Shown here: piece after piece, positions 1-24,175 of the stretch
Layout of the letters: the number at the start of each line of letters is the position of its first letter
Numbering within the stretch: position 1 is the stretch's first letter
IMG/VR virus record: IMGVR_UViG_3300021389_000133
Coordinates: 1 to 26,135 of that record
DNA length: 26,135 nucleotides
Source of the DNA: a virus
Reading direction: 5' to 3' (one strand)
Made by a program: the position numbers and the translations under genes
Notes under the pieces: model-generated
The model's database searches: none
Seen by the model: only the letters and a program-made list of their open reading frames with translations
Told to the model about the DNA's origin: nothing

Positions 1-3000
1 AATTAAAAGCACTTAACTGTTGACCTCCCTCAACCATAGGTTTTCCGTTGAAATCAGTTTTTAACATTGTATCAACAAACCCAGCCATTTCAGATTTAGG
101 AGTTTTGTTACCTTTATACTCTCTATCTAGTATACCTTGTAAATCACTTGACTTTCTAACTAAGTTACCACTATTATCTTCTACTCTTTTTCTATTTGCT
201 GAATCTATTCTTTTCTTAGTTAACCTACCCATTTTACCACTATCAAAACCTTTCATGTGGTCCGCTAAGTACGCTGCGGCATTTTGTGGTGAGTTTATAT
301 CGTAATCACTATTAAATATACTCATGAAACCAGCTTTGTTACTATATAGTTTTTTCTTGTAAGGACCGTTTTGATCTCTTTGTATAGCGTCTTGTATATA
401 GTTACCATACTCAGCGTGCACCATTATATCTTGCTCGTTCCAAGGTTTCATTGGATCAAACTTAGTGTACTCAGCATTACCAATAATACGCGATATAGCT
501 TCAGCGTGTACAGGTCCAGCATTTTCAGAAGCCCAGTTAGCTAGATTTGTAGAGTAGTTGACAAGCTCAGTATCGTTAAAAGCTAAATTATCAACAGCAT
601 GTTTTATTTCATGTGACAACACAGTTCCTTGCGTAAGCTTACCATCAGCAAGATTTTTAGCTGCAGCCGCTTGGTCTGTAACTATATATTTGTTACCAAC
701 TATCATACCAAAAGTTTCTCCTGATTTTAACTCAGCAATTAAATCGTTAGCGCTTTCACCTTTTCTAAGCTCACCGTTTTGTTCCATATCTCTAAGCTCT
801 TGCTCAAAGTTACCATCAACAGCTTCAACTACTTTTAAACTTTCTAATCTTTTGTCAGATAAAAAGTCGCTAGCGTTAACGTTTTCACTTTTAAATCTAG
901 AAACTCCTTCAGCTTTAAAACCACCAAATAGTTTACCTAGTCTTTCGTATTCTTTATCATATCTAGCTTCTTGATCTGCTTGTCTTTTCTTTTGCTTGTA
1001 TTTTTTCTTTGGACCTAAACTAGCTTCAACCATACCAACTAAGCCTGGATCAGCTTTTGCTTCAGCTATTATTTGGTTTTTTAAATCACCTTTTACAACT
1101 CTATGTACTTCGACTGCTTTCTGTCTATCAGTCATGTCTTTATAGGCAGGATTGTTTTTTAACAAATTTTTATGGACAGCTTCACCTCTTGTTCCCCAAA
1201 CTTTGTGACCGTTTTTATAATCGATCTTACCCATTATCTTTTCTTTCTGATCACGAGCTGTTTTTAATCTATTGTCAAACTCTTTTTTGTCTCTACCTTT
1301 TAAACTATCAGAGTGCTCTGTTAATTTGTTGTCTATTATAACTTGAGAGTCACCAGGTATAACACCAGCGTCATTATATATATTGTCTAGCACAATACCA
1401 TTTCTAAGCAAGTCTCTAGTACCATCACCACCTAGCAACATACCACCAACTTCCATATCGTTTTGTAGAACAACAGATTTTTTATACTCCTCTTGTATAC
1501 CAGTTCTTAACTGCTCTTTCATTATCTCACCATCCGGCGTGTTTGGTAAGGTAGCTATATCCATTTTGTACTTATCTATAATAGCTTTGCTTTTATTAAA
1601 AGCATCTCTCTGCTCTTTAGTCTGTACTCTATTCATTATAGCTGTAGAAGCAATACCAGGACCATTCATTCCACCACCGACAATAAGTGAACTAGCCACA
1701 ACGTCGTCCCAACCTTCAAAATCAAAATCTCTACCTAGTATTAAGCTTTCTGAAGCAGCATCACCAAAGTGAATAGATAATTCTTCAGCGATCTCACCAC
1801 CGGTTCTTTTTGCAAACTCAAGACCAGAGCTTGCCCAGTATCTAGCATTTTTCTGCGTTATAGCGTTTAGTATATCATCACCAGGTCCTTTTATAAAACC
1901 TTTTACAAGTCTATTAGCATTAGGTATTGTACCAGCAACCATTGTAATACCACCTTCAATAACACCACTAACCGTTGCTTGTGCTAGTATCTCATCATCA
2001 CTCATTTTTCCAATAGCAACTGTCTCTTCTAAATTAGCTTTTTGATTTATATAGTCTTCGTAAGACATAAAATCTTTATTTTCTTCTAGCTCTTTTAGTT
2101 TTTCTTCAGCACCAATAGATGCATTTCTTTGTATTGTTAAATCAGCAAACTTAGTAGTACCAGAATTTAAACCAAACATTGTTGATGTTAACGCACTAGC
2201 AACTACAGTGCTACCAGTTAAAGCAGATCCAGCACCAGCAGTACCAACGGCAAGCAAAACATTAAAACCTTGTTGTGCACCTGTTTGTTTAGTGTACTTC
2301 CACTTTTGACCAGTAGCTACAGCTGTACTATAGTCTAAAGCTACTTCGTATTTTTCAGAACCAGCTTGTCTACTCTTGTGTCTATTTATAGCTTCATCAC
2401 TACCAAATAATATAGGGAATGTATCTCCAAAACTAGCAACACTATCTTCAAACATGTCTAACATTTGTCTAGTTGTATTACTATCTCTGTTAGCTATTTC
2501 TCTTATTTTTTTAGTGTCTTGATCTTGGTTCTCTTTCATCCAAAGATTAAGTCTATCACTTTCAGTGGTTACTGTTTGTTTGTAAGATTGTTTATGTAAT
2601 TGTTCTTGATCTCTTACTTGGTTTAAGTATGCTTGGTACTCTGCGGCTTTAGGACCAATAGCTTTGTAAATATTATTACCGTTACTATCTTGACTTGTTT
2701 CAACTCTAACGCCATCTTCAGCTGCTTTTTGAGCTATTTCTTTTGCAAATCTAAAAGTATTCTGCATACTTTTCTTGTATGTTTCTCCAGCTATTTTAGT
2801 ATTTTCCTCTATAGTGTTATACTGTTCTTCTAGCTGTTTAGCTTCTTGTTGCGCATCAACTCTAGCGCCATACTTAACTAGAACAGTATTGTTGTCCTCT
2901 GATAATCTTTTAGAATATTCCGCGTTCCAAACAACCTCGTTAGCCGCATCATTAACACGCTGCATTGATCTATCAAAAACATCATTGTTTTTAGCTTCAT

Positions 3001-4129
3001 CAAATATTGCTTGACCTTCCGGGCTTAATGAGTTTCTAACTTCATCAGAAAACATTTGGTCAAATCTTTTTGATTGCCAGTTTTCTTCAGGATTATATTC
3101 TGTATCACGTATAGGGTTGTTAACAAAAGCTTGTACTTTTTTAAAATCTTCTTCAGACATACCTTGAAAAGCTACTTGCATGTCTCGACCATACTGGTCA
3201 GTTTTTGTATAGGCATCTTTAGAAGCGCTCATATCTATTTTTCTACCTAAATCAGTCTGTGCTCTATTTCTAACGTTGACTTGCTCTTTTAAATAATTTT
3301 GAGCCTTGTTCATTAACTTACTTTTATCTTCAATAGTAAAATTTTCTCTATTGTTAAAAAAGTCTTCAACACCAGCAACACCAATGTTGCCAGTTAAATC
3401 TTCACTAGAAACCCATTTATTATTAGAATCATAACTACCTCTTTGTATTTTGTAACCTTTACCTATAGATTTTTCACTAGTAGGAACTATTCTAATACCT
3501 ATTTCTTTATAACCTTCGTTTGCTTCTTGAACATCTTTATCGTCAAATCTTCTCTCACCATCTCTAAAACCACCAAACTGACCAAATGAATCAGCGCCAA
3601 CCAATAAGTTAAAGCCAGGTCCATCTTTTATAAAGGCTTGTTCTTGTTCGTCAGCGCGTTGTTTTATTACTTCTAATTTTGCTATCGATGCAGCACTACC
3701 ATCTAAATCTATATTATCTCTAAAACCAGGTCCAGATATATTAACTCTATTACCAATTGATCCTGTAGCTTGTACAGTTATACCAGAGTTTGGATATGCT
3801 TTGTTAAAACTAGAAATAAAATCATCTTCGTTTTTCTTAGCCCAGGTAACAGGCGCGCCGTTATCCCAGTCATTTTCAGGTGTTAAAGCTGCTAATCTAG
3901 TTTTTTCTTCTTCTTTAACTTTTTCTACTTCTAAGTTTTTTTCTTTTTTCTTATTATTTATAACCGCAAGTTGCTCTGCATTGCTTGTCTCTTCAGCTTT
4001 GTATTCACCTTGCTTGTTAGCGACATACAGTTTTACAGCACTATTAATTTTATCTAAAGGTACGCTATCGTTTTTCATTTTAGCAATAGCACCAAGTATT
4101 TCTTGCTTGTGGTTATCTCTTAAATTCAT
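1..4129 (-). CDS. Giant internal virion/ejection-type protein with HExxH metallopeptidase motif; 3' end outside window
   Basis: The frame opens at ATG 4129 and has no stop to the left edge (1376 codons visible). It was too open-ended to appear as a closed ORF, but I translated it. The N-terminal third is charged and mixed (TPENDWDNGAPVTWAKK). Around residues 350-600 it is helical and Gln/Lys-rich. About 613-657 is an Ala/Gly/Thr-rich hydrophobic stretch (NVLLAVGTAGAGSALTGST), with further Gly/Ala segments near 705-735 and 810. Residues 1173-1177 are HEIKH in GTVLSHEIKHAVDN, a gluzincin-type zinc motif, with E1210 or E1240 (VHAEYGNYI) as possible third ligand. By size, position and composition it resembles T7 gp16-type ejection proteins, with a peptidase domain instead of, or besides, a lytic transglycosylase. 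The function of the peptidase is inferred from the motif only. Confidence 0.75.
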   Translation of the reverse strand, partial: MNLRDNHKQEILGAIAKMKNDSVPLDKINSAVKLYVANKQGEYKAEETSNAEQLAVINNKKKEKNLEVEKVKEEEKTRLAALTPENDWDNGAPVTWAKKNEDDFISSFNKAYPNSGITVQATGSIGNRVNISGPGFRDNIDLDGSAASIAKLEVIKQRADEQEQAFIKDGPGFNLLVGADSFGQFGGFRDGERRFDDKDVQEANEGYKEIGIRIVPTSEKSIGKGYKIQRGSYDSNNKWVSSEDLTGNIGVAGVEDFFNNRENFTIEDKSKLMNKAQNYLKEQVNVRNRAQTDLGRKIDMSASKDAYTKTDQYGRDMQVAFQGMSEEDFKKVQAFVNNPIRDTEYNPEENWQSKRFDQMFSDEVRNSLSPEGQAIFDEAKNNDVFDRSMQRVNDAANEVVWNAEYSKRLSEDNNTVLVKYGARVDAQQEAKQLEEQYNTIEENTKIAGETYKKSMQNTFRFAKEIAQKAAEDGVRVETSQDSNGNNIYKAIGPKAAEYQAYLNQVRDQEQLHKQSYKQTVTTESDRLNLWMKENQDQDTKKIREIANRDSNTTRQMLDMFEDSVASFGDTFPILFGSDEAINRHKSRQAGSEKYEVALDYSTAVATGQKWKYTKQTGAQQGFNVLLAVGTAGAGSALTGSTVVASALTSTMFGLNSGTTKFADLTIQRNASIGAEEKLKELEENKDFMSYEDYINQKANLEETVAIGKMSDDEILAQATVSGVIEGGITMVAGTIPNANRLVKGFIKGPGDDILNAITQKNARYWASSGLEFAKRTGGEIAEELSIHFGDAASESLILGRDFDFEGWDDVVASSLIVGGGMNGPGIASTAIMNRVQTKEQRDAFNKSKAIIDKYKMDIATLPNTPDGEIMKEQLRTGIQEEYKKSVVLQNDMEVGGMLLGGDGTRDLLRNGIVLDNIYNDAGVIPGDSQVIIDNKLTEHSDSLKGRDKKEFDNRLKTARDQKEKIMGKIDYKNGHKVWGTRGEAVHKNLLKNNPAYKDMTDRQKAVEVHRVVKGDLKNQIIAEAKADPGLVGMVEASLGPKKKYKQKKRQADQEARYDKEYERLGKLFGGFKAEGVSRFKSENVNASDFLSDKRLESLKVVEAVDGNFEQELRDMEQNGELRKGESANDLIAELKSGETFGMIVGNKYIVTDQAAAAKNLADGKLTQGTVLSHEIKHAVDNLAFNDTELVNYSTNLANWASENAGPVHAEAISRIIGNAEYTKFDPMKPWNEQDIMVHAEYGNYIQDAIQRDQNGPYKKKLYSNKAGFMSIFNSDYDINSPQNAAAYLADHMKGFDSGKMGRLTKKRIDSANRKRVEDNSGNLVRKSSDLQGILDREYKGNKTPKSEMAGFVDTMLKTDFNGKPMVEGGQQLSAFN

Positions 4130-6817: not shown

Positions 6818-9800
6818 TTATGTTAGTGTTAGAAAGTCAGGTTTTAATGTTATGTTTCCGTTAGGTACAGTAGCACTACCTTTTTTACCGTAAGAAGTTA
6901 TTGCTATAGTACCTACCACAGTTGCTTGTGTACCAGTCTCGTTTACTACAGTAGAAGACTCAGTCCATATGTAGCTATAATCAGATTCTGTTTGTAAAAT
7001 AGAATGCTGAGGTGCTACACCGGTAGTATTTTGGCTTAAAGTAACAACTTTAGTAGTAGTGTTTACCCCAGCAATAATAGTATTATCAGGTATAAAACCT
7101 TTACCAGATCCACTACTAACTCTCATACCAACTTTTACTCCAGTAACTCTAGTTAAAGTAACAGTGTTTGTGCCACTAGCAGTGTCTTGAGCTAGTTTGT
7201 AAAGACCACCAGCTCCATCAAACATATCACCTCCAGCATTGACAATTTTTGCTAAACCACCAGATTGACTATTGAAATTAAGCTCTACAGGATATGTTTT
7301 TATATTAACAGATGATAGTTGAGTTCCTTCCATAGCGCTAGGTATAGTTGTAGAACCAGTAGTAGTAACAGTTCCACCGTTTGAAGTTTCAGTACCACCT
7401 GTAACAGTTATAGTTCCGGTTTGCACTACCACATCAAAAGTTGTTTCATTAACAGCGTCAGGCACATTTGACTGTAAAGTTAAGTTTGTACCAGATCCAC
7501 TGTTACCAGCTAAAAGTATTATACTATATGTTCCACCAGCATTTGATTCGTTAGAGTCAATAGGTACTGTTATTGTGTCTTGGTGTACTGGCGCTGTAGA
7601 TAAATCTGCAGAAGTAACTTCAAAACTACCAACATGTGTTGAGTTTGAAAAGTCCCAAGCGTTTGTGCTAAAGTTATACGATCCAGTTAAAGCGGTATTA
7701 GCACTATTGTTTTTACCAACTTTTATTCTATAGTGACCAACGCTGTTTGTTGTTACTGGTATAACCTGAGCTCCACCAGCAAAAACTTGGCCAAGATAAC
7801 CAACAGCTGTAACTCTTGGTCCACTAGCCGGTATAGCTACAGTATTATTAGTAAATCTAATATCATGTAATAATGAATCAAAATCAGCAGGATCACTAAT
7901 AGCAGGTGGCGTGTAGAATATCTCTACATCAGCAGATTGTATTCTATTTGTAAGACCAGACGTAGTATAGTTATTGTTCGTGATAACCCAAGAGTAACTA
8001 GAACTATAAGCAATATTTGAAGGTAGCGGGTTCCAAACAACCTCAACACCATTATTAGAGCCAGATAACGGTTGTAACTCATAGCCACTATCAGCTGTTA
8101 CAGTATATTTAGCTACTAAAGTTGTAACCCCGTCAGCAACCACACCGGTATGTTTATCTGTGAAAAAGCTTGGGTTTGTACTACCTGTATATCCATTATC
8201 AGAAGTTCTAGTTATATTAGTTATAGTTCCTCTTGACACTACTATGTGATCTGGATTACTAGCTCCTTCGCCTGTTGTTGTTGGTTCATCTACAAAACTA
8301 ACTCTAAACAAACTAGTTCTATTAGGTGCTCCATGTGCTATAGGTGGTATTGCTGATCCATTATAATCAACATCTACATATATATTTTTATTAGCACTAG
8401 GCATTGTAAAAGAATTATAATATATTTGCACGTTTATTCTGTTACCTGGATCACCAGCTATACCATTGTTTGTAAATTCAACTTTAGCAACTTCAGCATC
8501 AGCATTCCAACCTCCTGCAGCCGTGTAAATATAAGTTGTTGAGTTTCCGCTACCAGAAGTTGTGGCTGTACCACCAGGAACAATAAAGTCAGCGGCGTCT
8601 AAATTAAATCCGGAGTATTGTGCAACACCTTGAGAGTTTAAAACATCATTAGTTATTACTGCGTAAATTTGCCCAGCACCTGAAGGAAGACCTTCTGTCA
8701 TCGTAACCGTAGGGCCATCTAAAAATCTAAAGTCAGTTGAATCAGCAGTTGAGTCCCAATTAGTACCACTAGAAGATTGAGACCTAACAGCTACTGTTGT
8801 TATATAGTTGTTCGATGTTGAACCACTACTTGATTTTGAATCATAAACTCCAATACCTTGAACTGAAAATTCTTTTTGATCCATGTTTGATAAAGTAGAA
8901 GAAACACCTTTAACTGTAGCAAACCATTTACCTTCTTTATCTTTAAACTCTATGTTTTCAGCTTCTTGTAAGTCAGTAGTCATAGTGTCTAAATACCAAC
9001 CTTGTTTAGCGTTTAAGTTATAATATTCTTTATCTGTGTAATCAGTACCATTTAATGTTACCGTTTGAAACTGTGTTATTCTTGATTGTGTACCTTCATA
9101 GTTTAAAGCGCCAAAGCTTTTTACAGAGCTAGGATTATTATTAAAAATTAAAGTTACGTCAGAATAATGTTGCGTTCCATAAAAATTATTTGCAACAGCG
9201 TTTTGGTGATGCTGCCACATGCTACCATGTTTAAATGTATAGTATTCGTTATTTAAACTAACACCAAACTCTAAACCATTAAAATCTTTAAAACTACTCC
9301 AACCTTTTGATTTTTCATTCCACGTAACAGTTTTTGTTATAGGTCTTAGTTGGAACTTGTCCATCTTAGTGCAAGTTGTTAAGTTGAACTCATCTTTTTT
9401 ATCATCATAACTACCTATTACATAAGCTAGATCTTTTAAGTTATCGTTAAAATAATCTTTCATACCTATGTCAGATATAACTTGTATTGAAGCGTTTCCA
9501 GTTAGTTTTAATACTTGGCTTCTAGCTTGATCACACCAGTATATAGCATCAGAAGTTACTGTAACAGACTCTGGGTTTGTTGATATACCATACTCACCTT
9601 GTATTGGTGTTGCTGATCCTAGCACAACTGTTGACGATAAAACATTTGAACTTCCATCAGCATTAAATAAAGCGTCTTTATTTGTCTGTATACTTAAAAT
9701 CTTATCTTCACATAAAGCCAAAGTGTTTGTATTTCTAGCTATTATATGCTGTATACTACCGTAACTAGGGTTTAAGTCTTTTGTTATAGCTTCAGCTTGT

Positions 9801-12800
9801 ATAAATTGATTTAAATCATTTACACCACTTATTGAGTTAAATACTCCAGAGTGTATAAACCCACTTGACCTGTGTTCTTCTGAATATCTTTCCGCTAGAA
9901 CAGTTGATGCTTTAACGCCGTTTGTTATTTGTGATTGGTTATAGTCATCACGTATTCTGTCTGATTCTATACCATTTCCAAATTGAAAACAGTTGGACCA
10001 ACCTAAAACAAAAGGCATAAAATGAGGCGCTCTCCAAGGTTGTAAACCTAGAGACACTACATTTTTAGGGAAGTTTCCAGTAACAAGATCTACATAGTTA
10101 TCACCAGCAACATGTTTATTATTTGTATTGTTTATACCTACGTAAAGAATTATTTGCGAACCATCATATCTATCTATGTATATAAAACTATCATGTTCTA
10201 AATCATCTGTTAAGCCCATACTACCATCTAAAGTATTATAAACAGTTATTCTAGTTATATCTTCGTTATCAGTTGAGTTTACAGCCATTACTTTATAAAC
10301 TACATCAGTAGCTGTGTTATCAACAGGTGAAGTTGAAGTTCCTTTATGGAAAACACCACTACCATTTCTAGCTTTAAATGTTGAGCCAATAGGTATGTAC
10401 AGCTCGTTGTTTTCAGCTGTAATCTTTAATGGCATTGCCATAGAGGCTTCGTAATATATATCTAGCCCAACATCTTCTTTTGGTTCTGTTTCCCAAACAG
10501 CTGGGTTTTCAGTAGCTAACTCAGATCCGCCAGACTCGCTTATAAAATCTTGTTGTAATATATCAAGTGGTGTTGTTGAACTTCCATCATGCTTCATTAG
10601 ACTTAACACATCAAATGCTGCAGCGTCCATAGGTCCACCGCCATCTAGTCTTTCAAAATTAATATTAAACGCTGTACTCTTAGATTGCACCTCTCCATGA
10701 GGACTACTATTTGTAGATGACTTATTATAATTGTAGCTTTGTTGTACTCCACCAGCAGATATAACCCTATAAGCTGTTTGCGTTGTATCATCTCTAAATC
10801 TAAATATAGTACCAGGTGTTCTCATTGTTTCATAAAACCTTCTAACCATACCTGCTTGTGTGTTAGATGCTGGTGCGTGGTTGAGTCTCCAAAAAGGAAA
10901 ACCTAAATACATTTTACTATAACTACTGTAATGTTTTAAAACACCATTACCATCACAATTCATTGAACTACCAATTGCATTAAGATGTGAAGAGTGAACA
11001 CCGTTAGCCTCGTTGTGATTAACGTGTCCTGAACTTCTCCAGTTATATCTGTACCATTCGATACCGTCCATATATATTTTATCTTGTCCTGCGGAACCTG
11101 AGTTAGTAGAAGAGGTAAAAGCATGCCACCACTCTTGAAGTCTATCCTTTGATTTTTTCATACCAAAAGATTCGTCGTTACAAGCTATACAGTTTATACC
11201 ATTTCCACCGTGAGCATCTTGGTCCCAAGAATAACTTGAGTAAGAGCCAGTTGTTGAAGGGTGAGTAGCAGTACTACCACCTTCGTTAGAACCTTGAGCA
11301 CCAATAAGAAGTCGTAAAGGAAAAGTGTCTATAAGTGTTAAACTAGCAGTCGCATCTAAGTCAACCATTATAGAGTTTTGTAATAGTAAATCTTTATATA
11401 GTTTAACAAAAAATCTACCATCAAACTCTGGTCTATTGTGTATTATATCTTCTCTAAGTTCTATTTGATAGGTTATAGTTCCAGTAAGTAAATTAGACAT
11501 ATCACCATTTTCAAAAGCACTTGCAATTCTAAAACCCATGTTAATGTTTGGTGATGAACCTATTTCTTTAAGACTTACTAACTCTTTCCAATCTGTAGTT
11601 GCCATTCCACCTCCTGATGTAGTTCCAATTAACCTAGCATAACCATAGCCACTACTAACTTTAGACCATGTCTGTTCCATAAACTTATCACCAAAAGAAT
11701 TGTTAAAATTATTTTCGGTAACAAGATAGTTAACCTCAGTGTTTGATGGGGTTGTAGCTATAGCAGCGCTACCATGTGAAACTTTTTTACTTTTAATATA
11801 GTCTGGCGCTTCATTTTCTATAGCTAACACTTTGTATCTAGCTTTTTCAGCTACAGGTCTTATATCGTCATGACGTTTTTTAAGAATTAAGTGCGTATCA
11901 ATATCTACTTTGTTTCTTTCAGATGAAGGAAAAGAAATCCAAACGTTACCATCTTCAGCATCGTACCAACGATCCATAACCATGTTGTAGTATTCGTTAG
12001 ATGTTTCCTTGATATAATATTTATAGTATGTAGCCCAACTAGGTATTGTTGTACCACCGTAATCTAAAGTTGCTTTTAATCTATTGCTTCTATATGAGTA
12101 TTTTTTATCTATAGAAAAACTACTACTTTTCTTAGGAGCTTGCACCGGTGTCTCTCTACCAAACTCATCAGAGTAAACAATACCTAACTGATATGTTCTC
12201 ATTGTTTTTACAGATGGAAAACCTACACCGCCTTCTTGTAAATAGTTTTCTTTATTCTCATGTTTACAAACAACACTTAAATTAATATCACCGTTTATAT
12301 CGTAACCCTGCTTGTAGTTAGCAAACACCAACCTGTTACCAGTTATAGCTAAAGTAGCGGCTGATTTAGGAACATTATCCCAAGGTCTTAATATTTGATT
12401 GCTAGGTACTACAGCGTGTATCATTTCTGATGTTAATACATATTCACCTCTATTAACATTAACAGTTCTGTCTGGCCATTCAGGGTGATCGTTTTCTCTA
12501 GTTATAGTTTTTACAGTGTAAACGTTTGGACTAGTTTCTTCTTTGTACAGCAAATCTACAGCTACAACATCGCTAGGGACTAAATCAAACTCATGGAAAT
12601 AATCTTTTAACTTTATAGACTTAGCTCTATTTGTCATACCTAAGTTAACACCTTTCTTAGCTATAAAATCAAAAGCGCCTGGCATAAAAGCTACGTTAGT
12701 CCAAGGAGCAAACGTAGAGTATTCACCGTCAACAAATCGCCATCTATAAGAAAATCTAGGGAATTTAAACTCGAATAAAGCATTTTCTGTTTCTAATCTA

Positions 12801-14233
12801 CCTTGCCAATCACCAGGGGTTGTTTGAACATTTGTAGAAACACTGTCTATTTCAAAGTTATAAGGACCAGTACTACCACCGTTTTGTGGAGCACCACCAG
12901 GACCGCTAGTTACTGTAGCTCTTACCAAAGCATCAGTCGACTCTAGCAAATTAGCAGGTTCTGATAAATCATCTGTAAATATAACTACATCACCTTTTCT
13001 AAGATCTATTGGCGAAGTAAATACTAATCCATTTACAGAAGTACCAGCTTCGTATGGATCACCAGCTCCACCATTTTCTCTCCAAACTATTTGAGCTGAC
13101 AACTGTCCAAATGTAGGATTAGGAGTTAAAAGGTTACCGTTACTGTCAGTAGGTACTCTTTCTATAGGAGTGTCTGACATTTCTAATTTTAATGGAGCTT
13201 TTGGATATTTTTTAACTACAGTTATATATTGTTTTTCAAGATATACTGGTTCGTAATCATTTTGCCTTAGAGCAACTTCATAACCAGTTGATGGTCTTTC
13301 TATAACTAATCTAGTGTGAAAGTCTGGGTTGTTTGTATAACCAGTAGTATTTCTTTTACTTGAATTACTTTGGTTTGAAACGTGAGTTTTTATCTGAGTT
13401 ACATTATGACCTACAACTCTAGCTGTACCACCAGTACCCAGTAAACATCTTTTTATATTTATTTTCTTTGGCTCGGTGTAGTTGTCAGTCCAAAACAATA
13501 AACCATCTATATGATCTATAGAAGTTATTTTATCAAAAGGACTAAACTCTAAAACTCTAGGAGCTCTAAAGCTTATGGCTTGACCTGAGTTAATGTATAT
13601 AGGTGAAGATAAAAATATCTTCCAAGTTGATGTAGCTTTAACTATATCAGTAACTTGTATGTTATGGTTTTCACCTACGTAGTATGTAGCTCCATTTGCA
13701 ACTGTTTGTCCAGCTATTGTTTTAGAACTTCCACTAGAGTTTGTAAAAGATCCAACTACTTTCATACCACGTCTTATACCCGTTTTGTTTATAGTTGAAG
13801 AGGCGCCAAATGGAACTTCAATATAAGGAGCTCCGGTTTGCATGTTGGCACTTGCATTTTGTTTCACTTTAAATATATCAACAACAACATACTTACTAAG
13901 CTTAGTTATAGAATCATATTCTATTATAAAGTCTTTGTATATTAAAGGTTGAAAACCTTGTAAAGCAGGATGCCCTTCACTTGATACAAAGTAATATATT
14001 AGGTCAGACTCAGGTAAAACATAAACACCAACACAAGTAGAATAATCAGCAAGAACAATATTAGAAGTTACTTCTGTATTACCTAAAAGCGTCTGCACAG
14101 AACCAATATCACTACCATCAGAAGACTGGACTTGTATATTGTTAGCATCACGATATGTTCCATCTTTAACTAAACGCTCGTCGTTGTCTTTATCCATCTT
14201 ACCGCCAGCGAAGTTTCTTTTATATTCTGCCAT
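6818..14233 (-). CDS. Giant tail nozzle ('muzzle'/stabilization-type) protein, 2471 aa
   Basis: The N-terminus carries KMDKDNDERLVKDGTYRDA (residues 12-30) and SSDGSDIGSVQTLLGN (37-52), a pattern found at the start of tail stabilization or 'muzzle' proteins of crAss-like and related podoviruses. Most of the chain is beta-rich. Around residues 1480-1650 it contains VTVTSDAIYWCDQARSQVLK and GVSLNNEYYTFKHGSMWQ, which look like beta-propeller/nozzle repeats (T7 gp12-type role). The part after about residue 1700 is Ser/Thr/Gly-rich, with strand-rich modules such as GTITVTGGTETSNGG, resembling Ig-like or fibre-type domains. It probably forms the distal tail tip that holds fibres and opens for ejection. 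At 2471 aa it is far longer than T7 gp12 (794 aa). No transmembrane segment or enzymatic motif was noticed. Confidence 0.8.
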   Translation of the reverse strand: MAEYKRNFAGGKMDKDNDERLVKDGTYRDANNIQVQSSDGSDIGSVQTLLGNTEVTSNIVLADYSTCVGVYVLPESDLIYYFVSSEGHPALQGFQPLIYKDFIIEYDSITKLSKYVVVDIFKVKQNASANMQTGAPYIEVPFGASSTINKTGIRRGMKVVGSFTNSSGSSKTIAGQTVANGATYYVGENHNIQVTDIVKATSTWKIFLSSPIYINSGQAISFRAPRVLEFSPFDKITSIDHIDGLLFWTDNYTEPKKINIKRCLLGTGGTARVVGHNVTQIKTHVSNQSNSSKRNTTGYTNNPDFHTRLVIERPSTGYEVALRQNDYEPVYLEKQYITVVKKYPKAPLKLEMSDTPIERVPTDSNGNLLTPNPTFGQLSAQIVWRENGGAGDPYEAGTSVNGLVFTSPIDLRKGDVVIFTDDLSEPANLLESTDALVRATVTSGPGGAPQNGGSTGPYNFEIDSVSTNVQTTPGDWQGRLETENALFEFKFPRFSYRWRFVDGEYSTFAPWTNVAFMPGAFDFIAKKGVNLGMTNRAKSIKLKDYFHEFDLVPSDVVAVDLLYKEETSPNVYTVKTITRENDHPEWPDRTVNVNRGEYVLTSEMIHAVVPSNQILRPWDNVPKSAATLAITGNRLVFANYKQGYDINGDINLSVVCKHENKENYLQEGGVGFPSVKTMRTYQLGIVYSDEFGRETPVQAPKKSSSFSIDKKYSYRSNRLKATLDYGGTTIPSWATYYKYYIKETSNEYYNMVMDRWYDAEDGNVWISFPSSERNKVDIDTHLILKKRHDDIRPVAEKARYKVLAIENEAPDYIKSKKVSHGSAAIATTPSNTEVNYLVTENNFNNSFGDKFMEQTWSKVSSGYGYARLIGTTSGGGMATTDWKELVSLKEIGSSPNINMGFRIASAFENGDMSNLLTGTITYQIELREDIIHNRPEFDGRFFVKLYKDLLLQNSIMVDLDATASLTLIDTFPLRLLIGAQGSNEGGSTATHPSTTGSYSSYSWDQDAHGGNGINCIACNDESFGMKKSKDRLQEWWHAFTSSTNSGSAGQDKIYMDGIEWYRYNWRSSGHVNHNEANGVHSSHLNAIGSSMNCDGNGVLKHYSSYSKMYLGFPFWRLNHAPASNTQAGMVRRFYETMRTPGTIFRFRDDTTQTAYRVISAGGVQQSYNYNKSSTNSSPHGEVQSKSTAFNINFERLDGGGPMDAAAFDVLSLMKHDGSSTTPLDILQQDFISESGGSELATENPAVWETEPKEDVGLDIYYEASMAMPLKITAENNELYIPIGSTFKARNGSGVFHKGTSTSPVDNTATDVVYKVMAVNSTDNEDITRITVYNTLDGSMGLTDDLEHDSFIYIDRYDGSQIILYVGINNTNNKHVAGDNYVDLVTGNFPKNVVSLGLQPWRAPHFMPFVLGWSNCFQFGNGIESDRIRDDYNQSQITNGVKASTVLAERYSEEHRSSGFIHSGVFNSISGVNDLNQFIQAEAITKDLNPSYGSIQHIIARNTNTLALCEDKILSIQTNKDALFNADGSSNVLSSTVVLGSATPIQGEYGISTNPESVTVTSDAIYWCDQARSQVLKLTGNASIQVISDIGMKDYFNDNLKDLAYVIGSYDDKKDEFNLTTCTKMDKFQLRPITKTVTWNEKSKGWSSFKDFNGLEFGVSLNNEYYTFKHGSMWQHHQNAVANNFYGTQHYSDVTLIFNNNPSSVKSFGALNYEGTQSRITQFQTVTLNGTDYTDKEYYNLNAKQGWYLDTMTTDLQEAENIEFKDKEGKWFATVKGVSSTLSNMDQKEFSVQGIGVYDSKSSSGSTSNNYITTVAVRSQSSSGTNWDSTADSTDFRFLDGPTVTMTEGLPSGAGQIYAVITNDVLNSQGVAQYSGFNLDAADFIVPGGTATTSGSGNSTTYIYTAAGGWNADAEVAKVEFTNNGIAGDPGNRINVQIYYNSFTMPSANKNIYVDVDYNGSAIPPIAHGAPNRTSLFRVSFVDEPTTTGEGASNPDHIVVSRGTITNITRTSDNGYTGSTNPSFFTDKHTGVVADGVTTLVAKYTVTADSGYELQPLSGSNNGVEVVWNPLPSNIAYSSSYSWVITNNNYTTSGLTNRIQSADVEIFYTPPAISDPADFDSLLHDIRFTNNTVAIPASGPRVTAVGYLGQVFAGGAQVIPVTTNSVGHYRIKVGKNNSANTALTGSYNFSTNAWDFSNSTHVGSFEVTSADLSTAPVHQDTITVPIDSNESNAGGTYSIILLAGNSGSGTNLTLQSNVPDAVNETTFDVVVQTGTITVTGGTETSNGGTVTTTGSTTIPSAMEGTQLSSVNIKTYPVELNFNSQSGGLAKIVNAGGDMFDGAGGLYKLAQDTASGTNTVTLTRVTGVKVGMRVSSGSGKGFIPDNTIIAGVNTTTKVVTLSQNTTGVAPQHSILQTESDYSYIWTESSTVVNETGTQATVVGTIAITSYGKKGSATVPNGNITLKPDFLTLT

Positions 14234-17024: not shown

Positions 17025-18479
17025 TTAAGCGTTCATTAATAAGAAGTTATTAGCTCCTTGAACAACTAAACATCTTTCAGATAAGAAGTGCATTTCCATC
17101 GCATCTAAATCAGAAGTAGTAGCACCAACCGAACCAGTAGTCCAAGTTTTGTACTTTCTGCTTTCCATGTTAGAAGCTCTGTAACGTACATGTAAGAAAG
17201 GTCTTTTTAGGTTTTTACCTAATACCTCATCATAAACAGTAGATACACCAGCTGGGATCATAACACCAGTTATGTTACCAATTGAACCTCTCGTACCTTT
17301 GTCGTTTAGATATTTGAAATCAGATTTGTAGAAGTCATAAGAACCTCTTCTGAAACCAGTGAAACCTAAATTTAATGCCATATCTTCAGAGTTGTTAAAT
17401 ACTCCAAAAGAAGTACCACCATTGTAGCCAGCATTTAAAGTAGCTAACCAGTCATCAAAACCTATAGCCACAGTTCTGTTTAAGAACATCATATTCTCTT
17501 CAATAGCACCTTGCTCATCTAGCTTTGCTAATAAACCATCAACCTCACCAGTTGTGATTGCATTAGAAAAGTCAGAAGTTACATGTCCTCTATCGTTGAT
17601 AGCTGCAAATAAACCTTCAGTACCGTCGATTCTACCAGCTGCGCCAGTAATAGTTGATGGTGTCATTGGGTTAGAACCTGCAGTTGAAGTTGATTTCTCA
17701 GACTCTAGCATAGCCATTTCTAAGTAATCATTGAAACGAGCTTTAGTATCACCTGAAGCTTTTAAGTACCAGTAGTAACCGTTTTGTCCTTCCTCACCAG
17801 AAATTTCAACCCATCCAATTTGAGCTGTATCAGATCCTGAGATCTCATACTTGTCTTTTAGGATAATTGGCTTGTTGTTTCTTTGTTGGAATTGTGGCTT
17901 ATTAGCACCAACTCTACCTACAGAACCTTTAACATACTCAGATCCAAAGACCATAATAGTTGCTGCATCAGTACCAGTTAATCCAGTTGACATATCAGCC
18001 GCACTAGTATCATAAGCGAAAGCTGTGATTACACCGTTAGCTGCAACTGCGTTTACGAAAAACTTCTTAACAGTTGTAGTTTTTCTAACTAAAAGCATAT
18101 CACCAGCTCTTACACCGTGATTGTTACCAACCGCACCACCGTCTACATCTGTTGCGTTAGTCATTGTGATTGTTACATCACCATCAACTCCAGTTGCTAC
18201 ATTAGCAACTGTACACGCTAAATACGTAAGGTGTAGTCTACCTTGCTCTGACCAAATTACTTGGTCTGAAGCCATAGCTTCTTCTGCACCTACTTTTGAT
18301 AAGAAACCTGAAATAGTTCTGTTACCGAATATCTCAGCTTCTTTTTCGATTAAATCTGGCAAATATTGTTGAGCCCAACCTTTCTCAGCTGCGCTTGTAA
18401 AATCAATATAGTTTGTTGCCAGTGTTTGTTTAATAGGAGCTGGTGTCATTTTACCAGTCCCTTGAAATGTTACTGCCAT
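17025..18479 (-). CDS. Major capsid protein (HK97 fold), 484 aa
   Basis: The shell subunit, immediately after the scaffold. Features fitting an HK97-fold coat are an extended N-terminal arm (residues 1-45) entering ATNYIDFTSAAEKGWAQQYL, a Gly/Thr/Val-rich inserted beta region (about 90-185, which could be the surface insertion domain), the long helical spine segment around 230-260 (ARFNDYLEMAMLESEK), and an A-domain-like end DAMEMHFLSERCLVVQGANN (460-479). It is longer than the classic ~300-aa HK97 coat but normal for crAss-like capsid proteins, with which the ending agrees as I remember it. It is followed by a strong terminator, which would favour high mRNA output of this most abundant protein. 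No protease or delta domain is visible. Confidence 0.88.
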   Translation of the reverse strand: MAVTFQGTGKMTPAPIKQTLATNYIDFTSAAEKGWAQQYLPDLIEKEAEIFGNRTISGFLSKVGAEEAMASDQVIWSEQGRLHLTYLACTVANVATGVDGDVTITMTNATDVDGGAVGNNHGVRAGDMLLVRKTTTVKKFFVNAVAANGVITAFAYDTSAADMSTGLTGTDAATIMVFGSEYVKGSVGRVGANKPQFQQRNNKPIILKDKYEISGSDTAQIGWVEISGEEGQNGYYWYLKASGDTKARFNDYLEMAMLESEKSTSTAGSNPMTPSTITGAAGRIDGTEGLFAAINDRGHVTSDFSNAITTGEVDGLLAKLDEQGAIEENMMFLNRTVAIGFDDWLATLNAGYNGGTSFGVFNNSEDMALNLGFTGFRRGSYDFYKSDFKYLNDKGTRGSIGNITGVMIPAGVSTVYDEVLGKNLKRPFLHVRYRASNMESRKYKTWTTGSVGATTSDLDAMEMHFLSERCLVVQGANNFLLMNA

Positions 18480-19620: not shown

Positions 19621-21957
19621 TTAAACATCCATATCCAAACCTTGGCCCATCACATCATTTCCTGATGATTCAAACTTTGGATTTTTCTTTTCTTCTCTTT
19701 TGTCTTTACGATCTTCTTGCTCTGTTTTAGAAGTCATCTCCATACGTTTAAGTTTAGTGTTAATCTCAAACTCATGATCCATTAACTCTTTCTTTAGTTG
19801 AGCTTCTTTCTTCATGTACTCCATTTGCAACTTGTTCTTTTCAGTTTCTAATAATATTTGATTATCAGTTTTACCTTTTTCTTCTTGCATTTTACCTTGA
19901 GTAGCTGCTTGAGCTGACTGTACATTAGACTGTGTCTGTGCTTCTTGTTGTGCTTGTTGTAGTTTTTGATCTTTGTCTTCTTTCTTTTTTCTACGTAGCT
20001 TAAGTAATTGGTTAGCCATTTTTAAGTTTCTAACTTCACGTAAATCTATAGCATCAGCTAGTTCTATAAGCTTTTGTTGTAAAGCCATTTGTATGTTATT
20101 TTCTAACACTTGCTTTTCTTCTTCATCTGGTTGTAGCTCAATAAATATACCAAAGTCATATAAGTGTAACTCTTTCATTTCACTTAACGTAGCTACGTTG
20201 TGAGAACCTATAGCTTGTATAAAAGCTTCTTTTGTAGGTGAGTATTCTATAATATCAGATATTCTTAATGATATTTGTTCTGCAGCTTCTACTGTTAAAA
20301 ACAAACTAGCATCTAATATATGTCTTGTAGCTACATTTGAGTTTGCCGCTGCTAACTTTTGTATACCTACTAGTGATCTAGAATCTGGTGTTGAAGCGTC
20401 TCTAGCTTCGTTAAGACCAGTTACATCTCTAATCATCTGTAGATAATAGTTATAGTTACCTATAAGAGCGTTTAATTTACCACCTGCTCCAGCTCCATTT
20501 GAAATTTCTTGAACTGGTATTTTAGCTGCGTTTTGATCACCATCACCAGTATAAGATCTACCGATTACAGAACCTGTTTGAAAGAACATGTTTAAAGCTT
20601 CTTGTGGGTTATAGTTTGTACCATTACCTAAATCAACTTCTGCCAAACCATCAATATCTAAATAAACACCGTCAGGTACCATACGTGACAATACTTGTTG
20701 TATTTTTAAATGTGTAAGCTGTATCATGTCAGCAAAACCAGTTATTCTACTAACAATAGATTCTATTCTTCCTTTATACATTTTAGGAGCTACTAACGAA
20801 TAATTCATTTTAACCTTGTTAAAATTACTTTTATCTCTCATCATGTTGTCAGCTTTTTGCCATTTCAACATAATATCAGTTCCTAATATTTTAGCTCCTT
20901 CAAATAAAACTTCTTGTGCTTTTTCTAATCTTATAAAATCAACTTGCTTTTCTACTGGCGGATTAAATCTATCTGTTTTAGGTATTGCTTTTTCTCCACC
21001 ACTAGCAGTTTTCTTTATTTTGTAAACATTATTCATATATGTTTTATAATTAAAATATAAAACAGATATTTTATTTCTATCTTTAGAGTGTTGATTGACC
21101 CTGTTGTGAGATAAACCGTTGTATCTTTTATCTATTCTTTCTAAATCTCCAGATGTTAACTGTGGAAACTCTTTTACTAATTCATTTACAGGTATGTACT
21201 TTACTTCACCTATATAGTATATGTCTTCAAAATAAGGCGAGTCACTATGAGAATAAACTAAATCTGCTGGATCTACATATTGCACTCTAGCACCTTCGCT
21301 CCAATCAAATGTTGTTTTAACAGCTCCCATACCTAACACTGTTAAATCTTCTAAACATCTTCTTCTAATTAAATCGTATTTACTACCTTGCATTAAAACA
21401 TTTACAGCTTGCTCGTTTGCAAGTTCAACCTCTTGCTTGTACGTTAACTGCATGTGCAATCTTAATTCTTCCATTGTTTCTGGAAGTTGCTCTGGATCGT
21501 TTTTATAAAGATTCATGTTAAAATCTTTCTTTGCTTGATCGTTGAACTCTCTGTTACGCATGTCTTTCAACATACTATCCATGTACTCAGTTCTTTTAGC
21601 AACACCGTACTGATCTTGTGAGTATGCTTTTATATCAAAACTTCTACCAGCCATACCGTTTACAACTATATCAACAAACTTAGGTATAATTGGCACTGGC
21701 GTCCAATCTAAATTAAGATAAGACAAATCTCCATTAATGGACAACTCGTCTTTGTATTTTTGTATTGATTGTTCACCCCTCGCGTATAACCTAAGATTAT
21801 GAAACTTTCTTTGAGTCATAGAATATCTATTGGATTGAGGACCATCGAACCATTCTAGTTCGATAGCTCTAGCCACTTTTAACCCGTATTCGTTACTAAC
21901 TTTTTCTAAGTCACTAACAACTTGAGAAGGAAATTCTTTATGTAGAGAATCTGCCAT
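19621..21957 (-). CDS. Portal protein, 778 aa
   Basis: The dodecameric ring at the capsid vertex through which DNA is packaged and ejected. It lies between terminase and scaffold, as expected. The N-terminal region carries YARGEQSIQKYK (residues 58-69) and LDWTPVPIIPKFVDIVVNG (83-101), a signature I associate with portals of crAss-like and marine Bacteroidota podoviruses. The centre has VLGMGAVKTTFDW and VDPADLVYSHSDSPYFED, the clip/wing-type segments. Later NEARDASTPDSRSLVG precedes a long helical region. From about residue 642 to the end the protein becomes very charged and coiled-coil-like (KLRRKKKEDKDQK, then Gln/Glu/Lys-rich), which could form the barrel extending into the capsid. The last ten residues are acidic (GQGLDMDV). 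It starts one base after the terminase stop. Confidence 0.9.
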   Translation of the reverse strand: MADSLHKEFPSQVVSDLEKVSNEYGLKVARAIELEWFDGPQSNRYSMTQRKFHNLRLYARGEQSIQKYKDELSINGDLSYLNLDWTPVPIIPKFVDIVVNGMAGRSFDIKAYSQDQYGVAKRTEYMDSMLKDMRNREFNDQAKKDFNMNLYKNDPEQLPETMEELRLHMQLTYKQEVELANEQAVNVLMQGSKYDLIRRRCLEDLTVLGMGAVKTTFDWSEGARVQYVDPADLVYSHSDSPYFEDIYYIGEVKYIPVNELVKEFPQLTSGDLERIDKRYNGLSHNRVNQHSKDRNKISVLYFNYKTYMNNVYKIKKTASGGEKAIPKTDRFNPPVEKQVDFIRLEKAQEVLFEGAKILGTDIMLKWQKADNMMRDKSNFNKVKMNYSLVAPKMYKGRIESIVSRITGFADMIQLTHLKIQQVLSRMVPDGVYLDIDGLAEVDLGNGTNYNPQEALNMFFQTGSVIGRSYTGDGDQNAAKIPVQEISNGAGAGGKLNALIGNYNYYLQMIRDVTGLNEARDASTPDSRSLVGIQKLAAANSNVATRHILDASLFLTVEAAEQISLRISDIIEYSPTKEAFIQAIGSHNVATLSEMKELHLYDFGIFIELQPDEEEKQVLENNIQMALQQKLIELADAIDLREVRNLKMANQLLKLRRKKKEDKDQKLQQAQQEAQTQSNVQSAQAATQGKMQEEKGKTDNQILLETEKNKLQMEYMKKEAQLKKELMDHEFEINTKLKRMEMTSKTEQEDRKDKREEKKNPKFESSGNDVMGQGLDMDV

Positions 21958-21958
21958 G

Positions 21959-24175
21959 TTATTGTTTAATTATTTTTGAATTGTTTCCTTTGTTACTATA
22001 TTTAGCAATGTTTATATTTATTGGTGCTTTTTGAATACTTTGATTTGGTCTATACAAATGTCTATTACAAGCCATTATAGCTAAGCCAGAACTTATAGTT
22101 GCATCATATTTAGTTCTTTTGTTTATGTCAAAACCAGCCCAATCGTTAAGTGTTCTATTAAAATACATATTACCGTAACCATCTTTTGTTTGACCAACCT
22201 TTTCCTGTATATACATTTCAATTGCAGCGGCGTGTGCTTGCTTTATATCTTCACTTGAATTTGGTATACCACCTATTTCTTTTTCAGTTGTAGATAATTT
22301 ATTCCATAATTTATCTGGTCTGTTCATACTAAAACCTCTGTAACCACGTCTTCTTAAATGATATAGTAGTCTTGGTTTATTGTTCTCTGCAAGCATAGGC
22401 ATACCATAAAATATCAAAGCCATCAATACGTCTTCAAAGAATATTTCAGCTGTTTGTGGTCTAGCTATGTATTCTAAGAAAAACTGTGTTGGTGGAGCAT
22501 CTTCCATACTAAACTTAGTTAAACCGTGTAAAGCACCTTTAGAACCTTTACCATCTACAGTTCCTGATATATCGTAACTATCACAACCAAAAGCACCCAT
22601 ATGTTCGTTGCCTGGGTATCGTACACCGTTTTTAACTATAACATTATTTTGCAAGTTTACCGGCGGTACCCAAGTAACTCTAAACCTTCCTTTTTGATCT
22701 GGATAAAACATTACTCTTGAATCTTTAATACCGTTTATCCATTGAAAATTACCTTGTGTTAATCCTAAGTTTCTACCTAGTTCTTCGTTGTAATCTATTT
22801 GTTCGTATAATTTAACTAGGTTAAATATACTATTACTAGCTTCATCTCTAAACGCATGCTCAGTAGTTCTTGGAAATTGTCTGTAAAACTCGTTTAAAGC
22901 GTCTTGATCATTTTTTAAACCATCAGCTTCGTTTTGCCAGTTTTCTACAACACCTACATCTATTAACTCTCCTTGGGGATCGAGTACATCATTATCTGGC
23001 GTATCAAAAACAGGACGTCCGTATTCGTCAATAAATCCTTCGTAGTTCCATTCCATTGGGATAAAGAGAGAATATAAACCAGACTTTGTTTGTCCATTCC
23101 TGTTTCTTTGAGTAACGTCTGATGCATTGTATAGTTTTTTAAAATTACTACCACCTTTATCTAAAGCATTTGATGTTGATCCCATCATACACTTACCTAT
23201 AATTCTACTACCTAATCTTAAACATGTTTTTGTAACACGCCAGTTATTTAATATATTATCAGGTCTTTCCCACTTACCACTTTCATCATGTACTAAAAGC
23301 TTTAATTTCTCACCGTCATAGCTATTGTCACCTGTATTTTTCCAATCAATAGTAGTATCAAGTCCAGCCAAGTCTTCCTGCTTTTCGTTAGCAGTGATTT
23401 TTTTACGTGTGAACTTACTTGCAGGAACCCTATAAGCAAGCTCAGACTTAGGTCTGTCCATACCGTCTTGAATCGGTTTAAAAAAGAACGGATAATTAAC
23501 CGATATTGGAACGACTTTGTCTGTAAACATTTTTTTAGCATCTGCACCTGTTTTAGATAATATACCAAATCTTGCATCACTTGATATTGTAGCTTGGTTA
23601 ACTGTTTCAGCTGATGACATAAAAGAAAAACCAGATCGTCTATTTTTAAGGTAGCACATACCATAACATCTTTTATCTGCTTTACAAGCTTCCCAGAATA
23701 TATAAAATAATCTGTTTGCCTCTCTAAAGTCTGGTGCGCCTACATCTATTTTACTCCATTGCAAGTACATGTAATGTGTACCAGTTATGTATGTTGACTC
23801 TTTACCGTTTTTAAACCAAAAACCTTGCTCTCTTCTAGCAAATTCTCCATCTATATAATCAAACCACTGTTCTTTTTGATCTTCAGGATATGACCTCCAG
23901 TCGAATATATTTTTTAACCTAGATAATTGTTTAGGATATTCTATTTGTTGCCACTTGCTTTTGGCATGCACGTACACCTTTTTAGGTTGCAAAGGTAAAG
24001 CGATTTGCAAACCTTGTATTTCATAGATCTCACCAATAGTACCATCTTTTGATATAACGACAATATCGTGTTCTTTATTGTATCCATATTTCCATTTTTT
24101 AGTTCTATTAAGTCTACTAATAGTAGTTTTTTTTACTGGCTCAACTACTTTATATAACTCTTGCTCGTAACTCAT
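21959..24175 (-). CDS. terL: Terminase large subunit (ATPase-nuclease), 738 aa
   Basis: This is the DNA-packaging motor and headful/cohesive-end nuclease, docking on the portal. The ATPase half has a deviant Walker A, YLKNRRSGFSF (residues 175-185); Walker B LKLLVHDE (291-298, with D297 and catalytic E298); and a coupling motif MGSTSN (331-336). The nuclease half shows the RNase H-fold acid triad: D532 in FGCDSYDIS, E597 in the typical MLAENNK motif, and D691 in KYDATISSGLA. The length is above the usual 450-600 aa but normal for crAss-like and other Bacteroidota podoviruses. The N-terminal 100 residues precede the ATPase core. The start is fixed by the ATGA overlap with the small upstream gene, and the portal start follows the TAA by one base. 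Several shorter antisense or out-of-frame ORFs here are shadows. Confidence 0.93.
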   Translation of the reverse strand: MSYEQELYKVVEPVKKTTISRLNRTKKWKYGYNKEHDIVVISKDGTIGEIYEIQGLQIALPLQPKKVYVHAKSKWQQIEYPKQLSRLKNIFDWRSYPEDQKEQWFDYIDGEFARREQGFWFKNGKESTYITGTHYMYLQWSKIDVGAPDFREANRLFYIFWEACKADKRCYGMCYLKNRRSGFSFMSSAETVNQATISSDARFGILSKTGADAKKMFTDKVVPISVNYPFFFKPIQDGMDRPKSELAYRVPASKFTRKKITANEKQEDLAGLDTTIDWKNTGDNSYDGEKLKLLVHDESGKWERPDNILNNWRVTKTCLRLGSRIIGKCMMGSTSNALDKGGSNFKKLYNASDVTQRNRNGQTKSGLYSLFIPMEWNYEGFIDEYGRPVFDTPDNDVLDPQGELIDVGVVENWQNEADGLKNDQDALNEFYRQFPRTTEHAFRDEASNSIFNLVKLYEQIDYNEELGRNLGLTQGNFQWINGIKDSRVMFYPDQKGRFRVTWVPPVNLQNNVIVKNGVRYPGNEHMGAFGCDSYDISGTVDGKGSKGALHGLTKFSMEDAPPTQFFLEYIARPQTAEIFFEDVLMALIFYGMPMLAENNKPRLLYHLRRRGYRGFSMNRPDKLWNKLSTTEKEIGGIPNSSEDIKQAHAAAIEMYIQEKVGQTKDGYGNMYFNRTLNDWAGFDINKRTKYDATISSGLAIMACNRHLYRPNQSIQKAPININIAKYSNKGNNSKIIKQ

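Follow-up and report, generated by a model that had tools for sequence, protein, structure and literature searches.

The window, that is, the whole stretch of DNA analysed here, is a 26,135-base virus record (IMG/VR IMGVR_UViG_3300021389_000133) and represents a fragment. On its minus strand lie genes for a GroES-like co-chaperonin, the terminase large subunit (21959-24175, phrog_6681), the portal protein (19621-21957, phrog_6547), a virion protein that is the probable major capsid protein as judged by gene order (17025-18479, phrog_13704), and further virion proteins. Continuing on the same strand, a muzzle-type tail protein of 2471 aa (6818-14233), a protein resembling short tail fibres and other small genes precede a giant open reading frame at 2-4129. 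Pfam recognised the crassvirus muzzle domain crAss_MUZ_C (PF25729) in the muzzle-type protein with 37.4 bits, above the cut-off of 27. Since this protein is far longer than crAss001 gp44 (about 1371 aa), it must hold large extra segments. The terminase large subunit was closest to that of MW202828 (62%), and the values for Elemovirus, Maribacter, Cellulophaga and Tenacibaculum phages were 33-44%. All 87 terminase matches at E ≤ 1e-5 came from Flavobacterium, Cellulophaga, Tenacibaculum or Maribacter phages or from MW202828, and no Crassvirales terminase group was among them. Where taxonomy was looked up, this list of matches, which is not a tree, comprised Elemovirus, Pachyviridae, Pervagoviridae or unplaced phages.

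The giant reading frame starts with an ATG at 4129 on the minus strand, runs for 1376 codons and is still open at the window end, thus giving the N-terminal part of the protein. The whole protein has 3108 aa in a 94% identical relative found on another IMG/VR contig (L002, 10001-19327). Between the window and L002, dN/dS was 0.10 over the giant and 0.038 in the zincin-like region described below, and both are under purifying selection. A tblastn search of annotated phages with the 1376 residues of the window returned no match, and with the C-terminal half of the giant the only phage hit was a weak one, to a faecal phage record that lacks annotation. By gene position, the giant corresponds to Elemo gp18, phi38:1 gp101 and phi13:2 gp127, all of which are annotated as structural. 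In crAss001, the genes that follow the muzzle gene specify cargo proteins, which were found in virions and are proposed to be ejected (PMC10172136). Judging by this position and by analogy with crAss001, the window giant is probably virion cargo that is packaged and then ejected into the host.

Translation confirmed the sequence SHEIKHAVDN in the giant, which a preliminary description of this DNA had pointed out, and placed HEIKH at residues 1173-1177 (599-613, minus strand), with H1173 and H1177 as predicted zinc ligands and E1174 as the predicted general base. That description had also staked its reading on conservation of the motif in homologs, and this was borne out: when related giants were gathered by their C-terminal domain (alignment A1), which does not contain the motif, HExxH was found in 80 of 82 distinct giants. 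It lies 802-1498 residues (median 1013) N-terminal of the C-terminal domain. When 14 giants, all bearing HExxH, were aligned over their full length, only four columns within the first ~2000 residues of the reference were invariant, and the residues H, E and H accounted for three of these. A very long protein can acquire a motif by chance, and about 0.02 HExxH would be expected in each giant; however, 81 sites were observed over the 82 giants against 0.93 expected from composition, and 676 other ORFs of the same loci (413,122 aa), used as a control, had 6 HExxH against 5.49 expected. With a downstream Glu, E1240, also invariant in aligned relatives, a chance occurrence is extremely improbable, and we rejected it.

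HExxH was missing from just two full-length giants, L113 and L166, which had HDxxH at the corresponding place, as HHDAFH (giant residue 1031) and HHDGLH (giant residue 868) respectively, with the downstream Glu kept. These are natural changes of the predicted catalytic residue. HExxH was also present in most giants on contigs binned in bacterial or archaeal assemblies, the exceptions being short contigs. Such contigs (L191-L200) came from MAGs labelled Maricaulis, Aliivibrio, Woesearchaeota and Bacteroidetes, and they are probably for the most part phage contigs binned with the wrong organism.

For the third zinc ligand, the preliminary description had offered two acidic candidates, E1210 and E1240, of which only the second held up. 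E1240 (410-412, minus strand, just outside the interval 450-650 given in that description) did not vary in any of three MAFFT alignments, two with 81 segments and one with 80, and has the consensus ExxTxxSDxI. Apart from L002, the aligned relatives were 10-38% identical to the window, and E1240 was the sole further invariant residue; because the segments were centred on HExxH, the motif itself is invariant by construction and only E1240 is independent. Aligners may favour the matching of Glu with Glu, and for this reason the support for E1240 is taken from its residue context, its location on a helix that follows the one bearing HExxH, and the pair of HDxxH giants, which stood outside the alignment. 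Thus, E1240 is a plausible third zinc ligand. E1210 (500-502) was not among the conserved columns and was rejected. G1141 (707-709), just before the strand pair preceding HExxH, was kept in more than 90% of the sequences.

The window domain was modelled by AlphaFold2 with 81 sequences, giving a pLDDT of 88.5 and a pTM of 0.85. Alignment and model together delimit a zincin-like metallopeptidase core at residues 1093-1265 (335-853, minus strand, alignment A3), and a zincin domain with a C-terminal helical extension at residues 1080-1335 (125-892, minus strand, alignment A2), to which the pLDDT of 88.5 applies. In model numbering, a strand (20-23), two helices (27-38 and 48-57) and two strands (62-65 and 69-72) are followed by helix 90-104, which carries HExxH (94-98), by helices 107-124 and 126-138, by helix 156-170, which carries E1240 (161), and by further helices. 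HExxH on a helix and a third-ligand Glu on a later helix are both features of Glu-zincins (MEROPS clan MA), and the order of elements matches the zincin core of polyvalent proteins as described in PMC5512222, in which three strands and an N-terminal helix precede the HExxH helix and the Glu helix. Foldseek searches with the full and the trimmed model against solved and viral predicted structures gave no relative at E ≤ 0.001 and no zincin, and trimming to the core brought lower confidence without any gain. Since no solved relative was obtained in this way, the assignment of a zincin fold relies on the motif, the topology and a profile similarity to M78 peptidases.

No zincin was recognised when Pfam, PHROGs and PDB sequences were searched with the protein of the window or with the full-length relative. 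Profile searches of PDB gave weak hits, several of which were zincins aligned on HExxH (M48 with E 0.02, IrrE, snapalysin and aureolysin). Compared with an alignment of M78 (IrrE/ImmA) peptidases built in this study, the domain scored 41.4 with a probability of 87% and an E-value of 3.7e-6, valid for a single pairwise comparison. The strand-turn-HExxH helix segment aligns, but over 45 columns only. Among 20 shuffled versions that kept HExxH, the best score was 32.0 and the probability reached up to 60%, and masking of HExxH lowered the probability from 87% to 0.7% with the register kept. Much of the M78 score therefore comes from HExxH itself, so that M78 serves only as a pointer to the fold, and the profile match suggests a modest addition to the evidence from the motif. 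At the cut-off of Pfam M78 (PF06114) no match was obtained, four of 81 members reaching this model with a best E of 0.005, and the window segment is not among the listed hits of PF06114. Taking the conserved site, E1240, the modelled order of elements and the gene position after the muzzle together, the reading of a zinc-metallopeptidase-like domain in a giant ejection-type virion protein is well supported, and the giant very probably has a zincin-like zinc site.

In known zincins, zinc is not bound by the Glu of HExxH. A zinc site kept for structure, packaging or assembly, rather than a protease acting in infection, would agree with the change of the catalytic Glu to Asp in two relatives, and it may have a precedent in N4 vRNAP, which carries an HExxH domain and enters the virion uncut, and whose encapsidation depends on this region (PMC5512222). 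If the site were purely structural, however, this Glu should be lost more often than is seen in the giants, and we consider such a role unlikely. The domain is likely to be an active protease, a claim that we make with less assurance than that of the zinc site.

The C-terminal part of the giant contains a HAD-type phosphatase signature (DFDDTLA, LTARP and FADDA), and this region matches the phage polynucleotide kinase family phrog_415 with E 2.7e-4 at residues 2207-2366 of the L002 giant. Among the 14 giants scanned, one also contains a P-loop kinase domain (AAA_33, 1.1e-10). If an end-healing enzyme were injected, this would be notable. The C-terminal tail of the L002 giant (residues 3080-3108) is rich in Cys and His and resembles DUF5763, which was matched by three of 14 related giants. 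In the window, residues 620-735 (1925-2272, minus strand) include the two most hydrophobic 19-mers of the giant, with mean hydropathy values of 1.36 and 1.41, which are borderline, and could possibly form a membrane-interacting part.

In other podoviruses, enzymes that degrade the cell wall are often part of the ejection proteins, and the preliminary description had named a lytic transglycosylase as their usual content. No such family was recognised in the giants scanned, nor was any polymerase or lysozyme family found by Pfam and PHROGs scans of the full-length relative or the 14 giants. The domain could itself cut peptidoglycan peptides or periplasmic proteins and in this way open the way for DNA, as the wall-degrading enzymes elsewhere might lead one to expect. 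Known phage peptidoglycan peptidases, however, are mostly of other types (M15, M23 and CHAP), and the scanned giants showed no wall-binding family either, making this role very unlikely.

We propose instead that the domain processes the giant itself. At infection, the giant would exit the capsid by way of the portal and tail, and the zincin-like domain, situated about one third along its length, would hold zinc on H1173, H1177 and E1240 with E1174 as general base and cut the giant polypeptide in cis, during or after delivery. Such a cut would separate the N-terminal third, which is variable and possibly interacts with the envelope, from the C-terminal two thirds with the HAD/polynucleotide-phosphatase-like domain, the large conserved domain and the Cys/His tail. 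Cleavage in cis is favoured by precedent, as P1 DdrB is processed before packaging and self-processing has been proposed in general for the zincin-like domains of giant injected proteins (PMC5512222). The computation itself shows that the zinc-site signature is conserved, that the domain bearing it is modelled with confidence, that selection is purifying and that the gene lies in the context of a structural block; from these we infer zinc binding, catalysis, packaging, ejection and self-cleavage as the job of the domain. Against this account stand the uncut N4 vRNAP, the two HDxxH giants, the failure of Foldseek to return a zincin, and an M78 similarity that is largely due to the motif. We therefore regard the whole explanation, a cargo giant with a zincin-like peptidase acting in cis during or after delivery, as evenly poised, and self-processing as the main role as even at best and perhaps slightly less.

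Because N4 vRNAP keeps a comparable domain uncut, a protease directed at the host also has to be considered, next to the non-catalytic role discussed above. After ejection, the domain would cleave a protein of the host cytoplasm or envelope, such as a factor in defence or transcription, with the giant as its delivery vehicle. Across the same pairs of giants, the zincin domain had a mean identity of 21% and the C-terminal domain 54%; this divergence would fit varied cleavage sites as well as varied host targets, and would be expectable if the targets vary. Use as an effector is among the options listed by Iyer et al. (PMC5512222), and the fusion with a polynucleotide-phosphatase-like domain resembles an injected protein with several activities. 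On the other hand, the near-universal presence of the domain and its low dN/dS at short range do not suggest an arms race, and no host target is indicated. A host-directed role, including the example targets, thus appears rather improbable, less so than a purely structural one.

The domain also occurs in a phage with a cultured host. When the zincin profile was compared with 167 ORFs of annotated phages, the top two were Elemo gp18 of the Flavobacterium phage Elemovirus, which has the motif as HEIFH and was matched along the entire domain (E 4.6e-9), and the MW202828 giant (E 2.3e-5), both in the same gene position as the window giant. They differ from it in being longer (3694 and 3859 aa, respectively) and in showing no match to the C-terminal domain profile, and Elemo gp18 differs further in carrying DUF3293. 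The MW202828 giant (L091:744-12338, UOF82488.1, 3859 aa) has two HEFGH motifs and is annotated as a reticulocyte binding/rhoptry protein, a name that looks spurious. Tenacibaculum phage Gundel_1 gp074 has HEFGH at 1337 together with part of the C-terminal domain. Cellulophaga phages phi38:1 and phi13:2 and Maribacter phage Panino have smaller giants, from which HExxH was absent, and so not every phage of the wider group has the domain.

Ever since zincin domains were noticed in polyvalent proteins and N4 vRNAP, their role in giant ejected phage proteins has been an open question, and zincins in giant injected phage proteins are an already known theme (PMC5512222, PMC12633501). What is new here is an unnamed family that neither Pfam nor PHROGs matches and that the giants of one large marine phage group almost always contain, its site being kept in essentially every sampled giant while the surrounding sequence falls to the low identities given above. 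Our literature search, conducted largely outside subscription journals, found no paper on metalloproteases in crAss-like phages. As the family reaches Elemovirus gp18, by profile, and Gundel_1 gp074, by motif and C-terminal domain, self-cleavage and host targeting can be tested against each other in a phage with a cultured host. The family also offers a functional label for giants that are annotated only as structural protein or are misleadingly named. We hold it as a tentative proposal, on the doubtful side, that three things are jointly true: the family is near-obligatory in the ejected giants of one large marine Bacteroidota phage group, self-cutting timed to delivery frees an end-healing (HAD/polynucleotide-phosphatase) payload in the host, and the rare HDxxH giants are natural variants at the catalytic residue.

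Among known systems, the crAss001 cargo proteins gp45-gp50 resemble the giant in being encoded by giant genes after the muzzle and in being found in virions (PMC10172136), but they include RNA polymerase-related proteins. One of them, gp47 (L003), annotated as a putative RNA polymerase subunit, has HEAFH near its C-terminus at about residue 2157 with a downstream Glu in MAEGF, both kept in a 51% identical relative (L253); gp47 did not match the zincin profile. The N4 vRNAP gp50 is likewise a giant ejected protein, with its HExxH domain (C1) about two thirds along the sequence (PMC12633501, PMC5512222) and a large helical C-terminal part after it. It differs in its polymerase module, no T7-like RNA polymerase family having been recognised in the giants studied here, and the profile match to N4 C1 was weak (5%, E 0.007-0.008), with none to C2. 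The MPTase-PolyVal family (PF18818) gave no match at E ≤ 1 in the window, its relatives, MW202828, Elemo or crAss001, and reached 13% in a profile-profile comparison with the zincin domain. The window lacks the His that is conserved where strand 2 ends in one phage-type polyvalent clade, but its HEIKHAVD has an Asp three residues after HExxH, as in that clade (PMC5512222). The polyvalent MPTase domains of Iyer et al. (2017, PMC5512222) share with the window domain the HExxH helix followed by a Glu helix and a three-strand core, and polyvalent proteins, like the 3108-aa L002 protein with its zincin-like and HAD/PNK-like domains after the muzzle, are giant multidomain proteins encoded beside late virion genes.
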